Below, one piece after another: positions 31,750 to 48,593 of a stretch of 64,000 nt of DNA (position 1 is the stretch's first letter; each line of letters opens with the position of its first letter). The translations under genes and the position numbers were made by a program. This DNA is from Candidatus Schekmanbacteria bacterium (GTDB lineage Bacteria > Schekmanbacteria > GWA2-38-11 > J061): positions 62,001-126,000 of the forward strand of contig JACRJM010000014.1 of NCBI GenBank assembly GCA_016219965.1, read 5' to 3'. The notes under the pieces were generated by a model. That model saw only the letters and a program-made list of their open reading frames with translations, was not told the DNA's origin and ran no database searches.

Positions 31750-32169
31750 TCAGTCTTCCTCAGGATATGTATAGGTAATGCTGAAATCATCAACTGATTC
31801 GAGGTAATCATAGACTCTTTTTCCATTTTTTGTAAGCCAGCTGTGACCATCAAGCTTTCCGTCATCTTTCTTCACGGCAAAATGTATTTTCACTTTCATC
31901 CCGTATCTGTTGAGCAAATGGTAAAGAAGAAGAGATTTTCTAAGGCATGACGGAGTAAAAACAAAAAACCGAATTCCAAGTATGGAATCAGTAATCTTCA
32001 ATATCCTCTCTATAACCCTGTCATCCATCTTCTTTTTTTTTCGAGGGGTAAGCAGTTTCAGCAAGCGCGGCAGGCTAAGACTCTTCAACAATAACGGAAG
32101 AGCAAGCACAAGCAGGAATATTTTAAAGAAAAGAATTACATTTGTTATCAGTAATGAGAGGCGGTTCAA
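31750..32169 (-). CDS. Lasso-B2-type (transglutaminase-like) leader peptidase
   Basis: 139 residues. N-terminal hydrophobic segment, then a transglutaminase-like core with the predicted catalytic Cys in SCLRKSLLLYHLL, His in DGHSWL and the following acidic residue in RVYDYLES. This is the pattern of lasso peptide B2 / McjB C-terminal proteases, which remove leader peptides with the help of an RRE (B1) protein. Last gene of a four-gene minus-strand cassette. Seven bp separate it from the radical SAM gene. Confidence 0.85.
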   Translation of the reverse strand: MNRLSLLITNVILFFKIFLLVLALPLLLKSLSLPRLLKLLTPRKKKKMDDRVIERILKITDSILGIRFFVFTPSCLRKSLLLYHLLNRYGMKVKIHFAVKKDDGKLDGHSWLTKNGKRVYDYLESVDDFSITYTYPEED

Positions 32170-32176
32170 TTCGCTC

Positions 32177-33202
32177 TTAATCCCTGTTCCAGGGGTTCTT
32201 GGGGTCTTTCTTCAGCCAATTCAGCTTTCCAAAATACTTTGCACAATAAAAACAGGGGAACCTGTCGAGTGAGCCTACGGATTTACTGCTTATCAGGGAC
32301 ACCCTGTCTTTCTGAAATTCAGCAATCTTGTCTATCAGCATCTTGTGCGCATCAAAAAGGCTCACCTTGGAAAGATTTGCAATTACATCTTTGTTCGCTT
32401 CCCCTCCTGCATATCCTGAAAGCTGGCAGCAGAACATGAGGTTTCCCATGAAATCCACTGTCAGAGAAGACATCCTTAAAGCTCTGCACTGGAACATAAG
32501 CTCGGGAACATCAAAGCCCGGCGAGAGGAAAATGCCGATTGAAAAAACGCCTGCCATTCTTACAATTTCGGCAGCTACACGGGTTTGCTCCTCAGGGGTC
32601 GGAACAAGACCTTCCCTTACATTGCCGGGAGTAGGCTGTATAAAAGCAAAAAAGAGCCTTTCTGCCTTTAGCTTCGATGCAAGCAAAGCCATCTCATCGA
32701 GCTGGTCAATATTCTTGTTACAAATAGTCATCTGAAGGCTGAAAGGGATTTTTTTAAGGAAACACGCGCTGATGGCAGACATGACCCGTTTATATGAGCC
32801 TTTGGCCCTTATTTCGTCGTGCACTTCCTCGCGGGGACTGTCAATGCTGAACGAAAGTCCTTTCAATTTTCCTAAACCGTTCCTTTCGAGGATAGGGAGC
32901 ACGTCGAGGAAATTCCATGCATTTGTAACAACATGGTAAGTGAATCCGTGAGTCACAACTTCTTTTATGATTTTCTCAAACTCAGGATGCAGAGTAGGCT
33001 CTCCGCCTGTGAAGGCTATGTGCTTTATACCGTAGACTTTCGCTTCCTTTAGTATCTTTTTTATAAGTTTAAATGATATGTTCCTGCGGGGAAGCCTCTC
33101 GTCCCTTAAACAATGTTTACAAACAAAATTGCAGCGGTTTGTAAGTTCAATCCCAAGTTCCGTGAGAAAAGCCATGTCATCCGGCATATCAGCACTCCCC
33201 AA
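32177..33202 (-). CDS. Radical SAM protein with C-terminal cysteine-rich (SPASM/twitch-like) region
   Basis: 341 residues. The [4Fe-4S]/SAM motif CNFVCKHC is at about residues 24-31, followed by the GGEPTLHPE motif. C-terminal cysteines (FQCRALRMSS, MFCCQLSG, FPCFYCAKYFG) suggest one or more auxiliary clusters. Peptide-modifying radical SAM enzymes of this type install crosslinks or thioether bonds in RiPPs. Its start overlaps the kinase-like gene by 14 bp, so the two are coupled. Substrate not shown. Confidence 0.85.
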   Translation of the reverse strand: MGSADMPDDMAFLTELGIELTNRCNFVCKHCLRDERLPRRNISFKLIKKILKEAKVYGIKHIAFTGGEPTLHPEFEKIIKEVVTHGFTYHVVTNAWNFLDVLPILERNGLGKLKGLSFSIDSPREEVHDEIRAKGSYKRVMSAISACFLKKIPFSLQMTICNKNIDQLDEMALLASKLKAERLFFAFIQPTPGNVREGLVPTPEEQTRVAAEIVRMAGVFSIGIFLSPGFDVPELMFQCRALRMSSLTVDFMGNLMFCCQLSGYAGGEANKDVIANLSKVSLFDAHKMLIDKIAEFQKDRVSLISSKSVGSLDRFPCFYCAKYFGKLNWLKKDPKNPWNRD

Positions 33203-34190
33203 AAAGTTCTTTTTTTATCATAGAGACTACAGAGTGCGGGCTCTTTATAAGATCAGCTCCGCTTCTCATCCTGTAAGATTTCGATTTCTCCACAATTTTT
33301 TTTAATGCAGCAAGATGCATCGGAGCAATATCTTTGTCCATCATCACAAGCAGACTGCTGGGTATCAATCTTGCCAGAGCCTCGGCCCTGCCAAGCGGAA
33401 TTAGAGCTGACTTTTCTTCTCCTGTTATTTCCGGGAAAAGAATGAATCCCTGCTTTGCTTCAAGGACGAACTGTTCCGGATAAACATCCTCCGCCCTGAA
33501 AGAACGCTTTGGCCCATCCCCGTATTTCCTTGCATTCTTTACCCTCTCAAGCTCCTCAAATCTTTCGGAGATTGCAGGATCTATATGAAAATCCCCTGGC
33601 AGAGACAATATCCTCACATTTTCCCCTTCATCCTTTAAAAGCACTCCATCGTCTGAGAGATACTTGCATCCTTCGCGAAGGAGCGTTATGCACAAAGTCG
33701 ACTTGCCCACCCCTGTATCTCCGGAAATCAGCACGCCCCTGTCTCCAACAGATACACATGAGGCATGGACATAGTATAGCCCTCTGTATCTTAACATCTC
33801 AACAAGCATAATATAAAAAAATATAAAAGAAAAAAATCTTCTTATCTCTATCGTCTTGAGGTTGAGGTAAATATCAGCAATTCCCCTGTCCGGATAGCAA
33901 ACCGCAGCGGAATGGCCGTCAACAAGAATAAGCCTTTCTCCAACTCTATAGCCCGTTAATCTGTCAAAAGCAAAAAGCTGCTCTATCCCATCCAATTCTT
34001 TCATGACTTTTTCAATAGACTCACCATCAGATTTTAAGATTGAAATCCTTATAGAGCCTGCCTTCTCATCAGCCGCTGTTGCAGAGAAAAAACCTATTAT
34101 ATCATCAACAAGACCAATCACATCTTCCTGGTCAGTAGTGACTGTAACCGGATTGCCATAGATCAGATAGGACTTTTCAATCATAGGCAT
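33189..34190 (-). CDS. HPr-kinase-like P-loop protein (RiPP-associated type)
   Basis: 333 residues with Walker A GDTGVGKSTLCIT near residue 157 and a following SDDGVLL strand as in HprK. It has no HPr-phosphorylase N-terminal domain and is not in a PTS context. Proteins of this type accompany PqqD-like and B2-like genes; in paeninodin-type lasso clusters a related kinase phosphorylates the peptide C-terminus. A phosphorylation role here is plausible but unproven. Confidence 0.78.
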   Translation of the reverse strand: MPMIEKSYLIYGNPVTVTTDQEDVIGLVDDIIGFFSATAADEKAGSIRISILKSDGESIEKVMKELDGIEQLFAFDRLTGYRVGERLILVDGHSAAVCYPDRGIADIYLNLKTIEIRRFFSFIFFYIMLVEMLRYRGLYYVHASCVSVGDRGVLISGDTGVGKSTLCITLLREGCKYLSDDGVLLKDEGENVRILSLPGDFHIDPAISERFEELERVKNARKYGDGPKRSFRAEDVYPEQFVLEAKQGFILFPEITGEEKSALIPLGRAEALARLIPSSLLVMMDKDIAPMHLAALKKIVEKSKSYRMRSGADLIKSPHSVVSMIKKELFGEC

Positions 34191-34231
34191 ATTATGAGTT
34201 ATAAAATGAAGTTAAAAAATTTCTAAAAAAA

Positions 34232-34516
34232 TCAAACGGAGGCTTTAAAATTGATAAGTTTATTTCCATTAAGCTCTTCCAGCAGCCTTACGACACTTTT
34301 CATCGCATTCTGGGGAGTTACATCAAACTTGCTGCATATATTTTCGACTATACCATCCACTTTAATCACTCCATCAATAAGACCCCATATGACAAGCGCT
34401 ACTTCATTGAGTCCGTAATAACATTTTGTATTGAGATCAAGAAGAACAGCCTCTTCATCTAATTCAGTGCAAAGGATAGATGGATTCTTAACTGGAATAG
34501 TATTTTTAGTAATCAT
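34232..34516 (-). CDS. PqqD-like RiPP recognition element protein (B1 type)
   Basis: 94 residues with the PqqD pattern: LDEEAVLLDLNTKCYYGLNEVALVIW and a C-terminal helix pair (NAMKSVVRLLEEL). Stand-alone RRE proteins bind the leader of a precursor peptide and present it to the modifying enzymes. First gene of the cassette, transcribed from a likely promoter 22-51 bp upstream. No precursor gene lies between this promoter and the gene, or in the other gaps of the cassette. Confidence 0.85.
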   Translation of the reverse strand: MITKNTIPVKNPSILCTELDEEAVLLDLNTKCYYGLNEVALVIWGLIDGVIKVDGIVENICSKFDVTPQNAMKSVVRLLEELNGNKLINFKASV

Positions 34517-45691: not shown

Positions 45692-45805
45692 TCAGCTCCC
45701 CGGATTAAAGCACTGTGGTATTATGCAAGTTGACTGATTCGGTCCTGCCCCTGTATCACTCTTGCAAACTCCAAGCACAGCTTCTTCAGGAACGAGGTGA
45801 AGCAT
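45692..45805 (-). pseudogene. 5'-truncated paralogue of the small Cys peptide gene
   Basis: A 37-codon frame (ATG 45803-45805) matching the last 35 codons of the 47025-47180 peptide. Identical residues include VPEEAVLGVCKSDTG and the three cysteines; only two residues differ (Ala/Ser and Thr/Val). Fourteen further codons differ silently. The 5' part with the YxxPxI leader motif is replaced by unrelated sequence, and there is no ribosome site, so it is probably dead. DNA identity over 105 bp is about 83% and stops at the TGA. Confidence 0.8.
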
Positions 45806-47024: not shown

Positions 47025-47180
47025 TCAACTCCCCGGATTGAAGCACTGTGGTATTATGCAGACAGACTGATTCGGCCCTGAACCAGTGTCGCTTTTGCAT
47101 ACGCCGAGCACTGCTTCTTCAGGTACGAGTTTTACTTGTTTGATGGTTGGTTTCTTGTAAGCGTTCTTTATGTTATCCAT
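47025..47180 (-). CDS. Candidate RiPP precursor peptide with lasso-type leader motif and three cysteines
   Basis: A 51-residue peptide from ATG 47178-47180 with a strong AAAGGAG 7 bp upstream. N-terminal half: lysine-rich with AYKKPTIKQVKLVPEEAVL (Tyr8, Pro11, Ile13), fitting the YxxPx(L/I) leader motif read by B1-type RRE proteins. C-terminal half: GVCKSDTGSGPNQS, VCIIPQC and FNPGS, with Cys28, Cys41 and Cys46. A truncated paralogue at 45692-45805 shows mostly synonymous change, so it is translated. No modifying enzyme is adjacent; the nearest candidate cassette is at 31750-34516. A disulphide peptide or small secreted protein is the alternative. Confidence 0.75.
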   Translation of the reverse strand: MDNIKNAYKKPTIKQVKLVPEEAVLGVCKSDTGSGPNQSVCIIPQCFNPGS

Positions 47181-47247
47181 AATTTTCTCCTTTAGTCTTT
47201 GTCATTCAGAACAACTAAATCTGTGACCCTACACACCTAAAGCTGTC

Positions 47248-47268
47248 ATCCCGCACTTGATGCGGGAT
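47248..47268. repeat. Dispersed hairpin repeat (TGTCATCCC...GGGATCCA type), copy 1
   Basis: ATCCCGCA, a 5-base loop and TGCGGGAT, with flanks TGTC and CCAGAAT. This is the widespread small palindrome seen in many bacterial genomes (the TGTCATTCCCGC type). It follows the 47286-48593 gene on the minus strand and could help terminate it. Confidence 0.7.
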
Positions 47269-47285
47269 CCAGAATCTTTCTTGTT

Positions 47286-48593
47286 TTACTTCTTCTTTGT
47301 CTTAACCTTCTTTGCCGTCACTTTCACCTTCACTGCATCGTGCTGAGTCGGTACTGTATTACTGTCTATATCCTCAAGTTTGTACCAGTAGGTCTTCCCT
47401 GCCTTAACCTTCTTGTCTTTGAATTGATATGATGCACCCTTAGTAGAAGTGCCCTTAGCCTTTATGAGATTCTTGTTAATCTTCTGATATTCTCCGTCCT
47501 CAGACTCACTCCGCAAGATGTTGAAACCGAGGTTGTCAATTTCAGTTCCAGTTTGCCATTTGATGATGACTTTTTTATTTTTCTGGCTAACTTCAAATGA
47601 AGAGAGTTCAATTACAGTGGGATCTCCCACATACTTGATTTCATATATTTTAAAATAACCTGTTGAAAATAATACATCTCCTACAAACAAACTTGTTCCA
47701 TCATTATTAAAAGCAAGAGATATTGGTGTATTGAACCCCGAAGCAAAGATACTTGAGTTGCCATATTCATCTACTTTAAATATTGAACCGCTTCCAGAAG
47801 AGTCGTCTAATCCTCTTGAACCAACAAACAAGAATCTGCCAAAAAAGCTATTTGGGCCAAATGTTAAAGAATATGGATTATCAACATCAGTTGCGAAAGT
47901 TTCTATTGCACCAACTGCGGAAATCCTTACAATCGTATTTGTTCCAAGAGGGACAGAAGATTCAGGAGGATTTTTTAAATCTGCTACAAATAAACTGTCA
48001 TTCCCAAATGAATTACCCGCTTCATCGTATCCGAAAGTCATTCCCATTGGATATTTCAAACTGCCTGGTGTCGTCAAATTTGAAACAGTCCCTGAAGGCT
48101 CTACCTTCAAAATATTTTTTGACCATGAAGACCCAACAAAAAAAGAACCTTGAGATATGAAAGCTCCATTATGATCTCTTGTAAATGAAATTCCAATTGC
48201 ACCTATATCAACATTTGAAATCAAATTGGTAATATTTCCATTATGGTCGATTTCTAAAATGTCATCTCCTCCTGGGCCACTAATTGCATTTAGGAGATAA
48301 AGCTTAATGTCACCATTTGCATCGGGACCAAAAGTTAGCCCACCCACTGAATCGTGTAAGTTTGATACAAAAGTTGATGCTGGCTCATTTATAGGGATTT
48401 TTAATATTGTATCAAATGAACCACTGTATAACTTATTTCCAAACATCCCTTCTCCAAAAGCAAGGGTTCCAGTACCAGAACCATTAAATTCTGCGTATAT
48501 TTTCACTTCAAAATTAGGGTCATTAACTATTACTTGAGCAAAAACGGTTGTTGCGTATAACAAAAAAACAAGTGCTAAACAATATTTACCCAT
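47286..48593 (-). CDS. Secreted beta-propeller-like protein with C-terminal FnIII-like domain
   Basis: 435 residues: a signal peptide ending around FLLYATTVFA, residues ~25-325 a repetitive beta-propeller-like region (repeated GLTFGP, SLTFGP, SLAFNNDG segments, as in NHL/SMP-30 type propellers), and residues ~330-425 a fibronectin-III-like domain (ELSSFEVSQKNKKVIIKWQT, YWYKLEDIDSNT). A Lys-rich tail follows. Exported, likely surface-associated; ligand unknown. GGGGG lies upstream of the ATG. Confidence 0.78.
   Translation of the reverse strand: MGKYCLALVFLLYATTVFAQVIVNDPNFEVKIYAEFNGSGTGTLAFGEGMFGNKLYSGSFDTILKIPINEPASTFVSNLHDSVGGLTFGPDANGDIKLYLLNAISGPGGDDILEIDHNGNITNLISNVDIGAIGISFTRDHNGAFISQGSFFVGSSWSKNILKVEPSGTVSNLTTPGSLKYPMGMTFGYDEAGNSFGNDSLFVADLKNPPESSVPLGTNTIVRISAVGAIETFATDVDNPYSLTFGPNSFFGRFLFVGSRGLDDSSGSGSIFKVDEYGNSSIFASGFNTPISLAFNNDGTSLFVGDVLFSTGYFKIYEIKYVGDPTVIELSSFEVSQKNKKVIIKWQTGTEIDNLGFNILRSESEDGEYQKINKNLIKAKGTSTKGASYQFKDKKVKAGKTYWYKLEDIDSNTVPTQHDAVKVKVTAKKVKTKKK

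Follow-up and report, generated by a model that had tools for sequence, protein, structure and literature searches.

The short gene and its immediate surroundings

Within the window, the 64,000-nucleotide stretch of DNA that we analysed, a gene for a 51-residue peptide lies on the reverse strand next to a longer co-directional gene (table 1). That the short gene is real, as proposed in the initial annotation, was confirmed by a protein search of the same genome, which returned a paralogue match at E 1.5e-28 and eight full-length copies in all. The AAAGGAG site claimed upstream of it is present, but its spacing is 6 nt and not 7. The Tyr-x-x-Pro-x-Ile motif reported for the N-terminal half occurs as YKKPTI (Y8–I13), and the three cysteines (positions 28, 41 and 46) and the NPGS C-terminus are likewise where they had been described. 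YxxPx[IL] is also found in 2 of the 213 short ORFs of the window and is therefore weak evidence by itself. The leader reads YxxPxIxxVxLVPEEAVLxxC. No family model claimed the 51-residue peptide in Pfam and NCBIfam searches, and a search of the open-access literature found no description of the precursor family.

The neighbouring gene, read earlier as encoding a secreted protein, does open with a signal-peptide-like sequence, MGKYCLALVFLLYATTVFAQ. Its 435-residue product gave weak SGL and ScyD/ScyE matches, below the cut-offs. A 34-bp stretch containing an inverted repeat, CCCGCA..TGCGGG, lies between the exoprotein and peptide genes (window 47239-47272) and recurs at several further sites in the genome.

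Table 1. Positions of the peptide gene, its parts and the associated genes (window positions, except the last line).
Feature	Position	Strand	Basis or remark
Very likely RiPP precursor gene, 51 aa; reads MDNIKNAYKKPTIKQVKLVPEEAVLGVCKSDTGSGPNQSVCIIPQCFNPGS	47025..47180, stop included	(-)
Predicted leader, residues 1-27, C-terminal end ...LVPEEAVLGV	47100..47180	(-)	cross-phylum conservation; boundary inferred
YKKPTI (Y8-I13), predicted [Y/W]xxPx[hydrophobic] RRE-binding motif	47142..47159	(-)	consensus from PMC13381572
Predicted core CKSDTGSGPNQSVCIIPQCFNPGS, containing three Cys and ending in Ser	47028..47099	(-)	alignment; paralogue pN/pS
Ribosome-binding site AAAGGAG	47187..47193	(-)	6 nt 5' of ATG
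Paralogue fragment without leader (MLHLVPEEAVLGVCKSDTGAGPNQSTCIIPQCFNPGS), probably a remnant	45692..45805	(-)	own-genome protein matches
Co-directional neighbour upstream of the peptide gene; product, 435 aa, predicted to be secreted and of beta-propeller type	47286..48593	(-)	sequence
FNIII-like C-terminal domain with Lys-rich tail	47289..47624	(-)	common to genes beside all full-length copies
Second RiPP-like cassette: lasso B2-family protein, radical SAM, HprK-like protein, PqqD	31750-34516	(-)
Orthologous cassette: radical SAM, PqqD, HprK-like, signal peptidase	G000:C4:131345-134126

Homologues, paralogues and paired exoprotein genes

Named relatives put the genome of the window close to Candidatus Schekmanbacteria. 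The peptide has homologues in each of the three related genomes and also beyond them, in 59 of the 396 Nitrospirota genomes, in Aminicenantes and in further phyla (those of G089 and G041 have two genomes apiece in the collection). Loss of the leader motif among homologues had been named as evidence that would speak against a RiPP. Instead, [Y/W]xxP was kept in 59 of 60 precursors, as YxxPx[I/L] in 42 and as WxxP in 11. The aromatic residue stands exactly 20 residues N-terminal of the first core Cys in 57/60 sequences; relative to that Cys, position -3 is Leu in 51/60 and position -1 is A, G, V, T or S in 55/60. At least three cysteines occur in 57/60 precursors, with CX3CX2C and C-terminal Cys clusters visible in the alignment. 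The C-terminal residue is Ser in 59 and Thr in one, while Ser ends 12% of the short ORFs in these loci. Outside Schekmanbacteria the leader is conserved and the core variable. The family thus has the short precursor, conserved leader and distinct core that an RRE-dependent radical SAM RiPP requires. Motif retention, the cassette neighbours described below and the lack of a Pfam or NCBIfam family for the peptide all support the RiPP reading, and the 51-residue gene very likely encodes a RiPP precursor.

We also noticed a divergent relative of the precursor (RVKLNPEQAVLSCC...) near a different radical SAM gene (L108 11918-12118, G003:C136). A UPF0489 (PF12640) gene, matching just over the cut-off, adjoins the precursor in an Aminicenantes locus (L057 5628-6461), and a sequence judged by eye to be similar to UPF0489 lies in G003 (L108 5112-6719). 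PF12640 includes peptide arginases, and these sequence matches suggest Arg-to-ornithine modification in some family members.

Besides the eight full-length copies, protein searches of the genome recovered two leaderless copies, one of them the fragment at window 45692-45805, and two smaller remnants. SD-like sequences precede most of the other copies and are weak at C14:27938 and C3:395191. By sequence, the copies are scattered in the genome and their cores are nearly identical. Preservation of the amino-acid sequence, noted before for a single diverged paralogue, holds over all eight full-length copies, with a mean pS of 0.68 (near saturation) and a pN of 0.08. By region, pN was 0.19 for residues 1-17, 0.009 for residues 18-29 and 0.038 for residues 30-51, the core, where pS was 0.77. 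On these substitution patterns, the precursor family is old and functional and its core is kept under purifying selection. A core kept in this way speaks against an antibiotic arsenal and in favour of a constant role alongside the exoproteins, be it structural, at the surface or cofactor-like.

Each of the eight full-length copies adjoins one of the 27 genes of the 3.6-Mb genome that carry a common C-terminal domain. The gap is at most 14 nt in four cases; the nearest domain-bearing gene is mostly upstream, and downstream for C3:58377 and C3:49524. The domain is predicted to be FNIII-like (pLDDT 82), and a fold search gave generic FNIII matches only. The proteins that bear it contain beta-propeller, RCC1, TSP3 or FG-GAP regions and are usually predicted to be secreted. 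Among loci of the relatives, G002:C4, G002:C43, G002:C26 and G003:C85 show the pairing clearly, whereas it was not seen at some others (L049 and L050 among them), and C25 peptidase genes adjoin precursor copies in G001 and G002. A search for SprA_N, a type IX secretion marker, gave no match, nor did the controls. The unusual feature of the sequence is that every copy in the genome of the window is paired with an exoprotein-type gene sharing the FNIII-like domain while the core is conserved. This suggests a functional link between precursor and exoproteins, with a possible service of the product at the cell surface. Over seven pairs, the distances between peptides correlate with those between domains (Mantel r 0.67, p 0.011), so the pairs are partly inherited together, and co-duplication may account for part of the pairing.

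Taken further, the same correlation fits an ordinary RiPP, antimicrobial or signal, that would follow the same maturation scheme with a different function, its exoprotein neighbourhood resulting from co-duplication in repeat-rich regions: copies and neighbours share ancestry, and the precursor remnants show gene turnover. Antimicrobial activity is frequent among radical SAM RiPPs. We give this explanation a minority share of our confidence, because the core has not diversified between paralogues despite near-saturated synonymous sites, and because a second, different PqqD/radical SAM cassette (L112) likewise encloses a domain-bearing gene, together with genes for a C25 peptidase and for what may be a precursor.

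Candidate maturation cassettes

In other phyla, the precursor sits with genes for PqqD (RRE), a radical SAM/SPASM enzyme of ~365 aa and an HprK-like kinase, and its loci often also hold an archaeal-type signal peptidase and an NTP-transferase (NTP_transf_5). Co-occurrence with an RRE-type cassette had been proposed as a check, and it was borne out: within 1.5 kb of the precursor, 25 of 27 fetched Nitrospirota loci contain the cassette-type radical SAM and 24 of 27 the HprK-like gene. The orthologous radical SAM of the genome studied here (best E 1e-127, next 1e-23) belongs to a cassette on contig C4 (table 1). In the radical SAM tree, 32 cassette- or precursor-linked sequences, including three from Schekmanbacteria, form one group (support 99/98), and 16 other radical SAMs, several of them on long branches, all fall outside it. 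Three genomes of Schekmanbacteria retain an orthologue of the cassette; G003, which is 70% complete, has precursors, and the orthologous cassette was not found there.

The cassette kinase has a conserved P-loop/Walker A and HPr kinase sequence matches, and its model (pLDDT 92) matched the PEPCK and HprK folds. The signal peptidase scores over the TIGR02228 cut-off, with the Ser, His and Asp of the archaeal type conserved. PF14907 occurs in the G001, G041, G089 and Aminicenantes loci and was not seen in the C4 cassette; ABC proteins were noted, by eye only, near the G001 cassette, and an ABC transporter was likewise not seen in that on C4.

No precursor was found beside the C4 cassette, and the 17 Schekmanbacteria precursor loci hold none of the cassette enzymes within 1.5 kb. 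Partner genes of both kinds, PqqD/RRE and radical SAM, are thus encoded next to the precursor in other phyla and in trans here. Because the C4 cassette is on another contig with no precursor beside it, it probably acts in trans, and on these sequence relationships we consider maturation of the precursors by this cassette likely.

The expectation of an RRE partner stood, in that a probable PqqD/radical SAM partner lies on C4; the PqqD/B2 cassette of the window is an unlikely partner. By sequence this second cassette, whose B2-family protein is over the NF033537 cut-off, is of a different type from the precursor-linked one, and no convincing precursor was found beside it. It lies ~12.5 kb from the peptide gene and has both a PqqD and a B2-family protein, and YxxPxI is a lasso B1 motif (PMC13381572), so that maturation there would make the product a lasso- or B2-processed peptide. 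We regard this as very unlikely: in other phyla the precursor family adjoins the C4-type cassette, the radical SAM of the window cassette is outside the precursor-linked tree group, though on a long branch, seven of the eight full-length copies are not near it, and no lasso cyclase was seen. That the gene encodes an unmodified small protein of exoprotein operons, a chaperone or assembly factor with a merely ancestral leader likeness, would suit a core conservation unusually high for a RiPP and a gene that always accompanies domain-bearing genes in its own genome, but is highly improbable given that the precursors retain [Y/W]xxP, its constant distance to Cys and their terminal Ser, and that three Schekmanbacteria genomes keep the cassette orthologue.

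Two further clusters were observed in this genome. One (L112 7443-16691, G000:C4:210442-219690) encodes a PqqD, a small protein that may be a precursor (with KPKYVQPEVITYTNDDVIKHLGPAQACSTTPCTVSPSGSGF at the C-terminus), an FNIII-tail protein and a radical SAM, with a P-loop protein, a C25 gingipain-like peptidase and an S24-type peptidase. The other (L111 7614-11480, G000:C15) combines PqqD and radical SAM genes with those for an NTP_transf_5 protein and for a small, Tat-signal-like protein of 67 aa.

Known relatives and a proposed role

Linear polyphosphorylated peptides (LPP) of Bacillota are among the closest known systems. Experiments there showed binding of a YxxP precursor by an RRE, its phosphorylation by an HprK-like kinase and its cleavage by a SipW-like peptidase (PMC13381572). 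Our cassette has the clustering of SpI, RRE and HprK-like kinase genes that marks LPP, and both systems have a discrete RRE, a YxxP leader, an archaeal-type signal peptidase I and a frequent location in polysaccharide loci (PMC13381572); the NTP-transferase of LPP has a counterpart at some of our loci. In contrast to LPP, the systems described here occur in Schekmanbacteria and Nitrospirota, have a Cys-rich core and an additional radical SAM/SPASM enzyme, lack the LPP leader consensus YxxPxVLxHQxIxFETxxS, end in Ser and, in the genome of the window, have their precursors in trans. LPP is phosphorylated at core Ser3, and an S3T variant is not phosphorylated (PMC13381572), so the LPP kinase lends no support to the Thr-ending precursor.

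HprK homologues phosphorylate the conserved C-terminal Ser of lasso precursors (PMC9266682, PMC8498205). With these paeninodin/pseudomycoidin-type lasso systems, the family has in common the [Y/W]xxPx[hydrophobic] leader, a discrete RRE, an HprK-like kinase, a near-invariant C-terminal Ser and, at some loci, a nucleotidyltransferase; it differs in having a radical SAM and a Cys-rich core and no B2 in the cassette, and the genes read around the C4 cassette included no lasso macrolactam cyclase (C protein). A SPASM radical SAM with a Cys-rich core is also the mark of sactipeptides and ranthipeptides. The PqqD-like, ScmC/HprK-like and radical SAM/SPASM proteins of SynChlorMet (TIGR04248-TIGR04251) are remote relatives; some Nitrospirota loci of the family resemble that system in holding two radical SAMs, and all scores against the ScmC/D/E/F models were far below the curated cut-offs. 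Prochlorosins (PMC10783134) likewise pair one modifying system (ProcM) with many precursors, but with other enzymes; the present family keeps its core conserved where prochlorosins diversify theirs, and its copies are paired with exoprotein genes.

Taken as a whole, the sequence data are best explained by a RiPP precursor in eight copies that is matured in trans by a single enzyme set on C4, a reading that we hold with considerable confidence. With the LPP enzymes and the lasso kinases as precedents, we infer the chemical steps as follows; export and function are proposals as well. The stand-alone PqqD-type RRE would bind the [Y/W]xxP leader and hand the peptide to the radical SAM/SPASM enzyme, which would modify the Cys-rich core, a thioether or other carbon cross-link being plausible. 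The terminal Ser and the kinase together predict C-terminal Ser phosphorylation as in paeninodin, a step that we rate as plausible; by this analogy, the HprK-like kinase would probably phosphorylate the near-invariant Ser. The archaeal-type (Ser-His-Asp) signal peptidase would remove the leader, and our guess is that it cuts before Cys28, after the small residue 27. The enzymes are encoded once, on C4, and the eight precursor copies would serve as their substrates in trans. Alongside the exoproteins, the product may have an unchanging role in structure, at the surface or as something like a cofactor. A more specific proposal, and a doubtful one, is that the conserved RiPP, once phosphorylated and modified by the radical SAM enzyme, regularly accompanies the FNIII-tail secreted proteins, bound or attached to them, possibly with the C25 gingipain-like proteases encoded beside some copies, and hence would be a part of cell-surface machinery and not a free metabolite.

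The precursor family, which has no Pfam or NCBIfam model, is spread over several mostly uncultured phyla, and its cassette unites radical SAM chemistry with the kinase and signal-peptidase logic lately shown for LPP. Genome mining restricted to enzyme neighbourhoods misses such in-trans precursors. Conserved-core precursors in multiple copies, paired with genes for exoproteins, suggest that a RiPP may have a role other than antibiotic action, and that role becomes testable.
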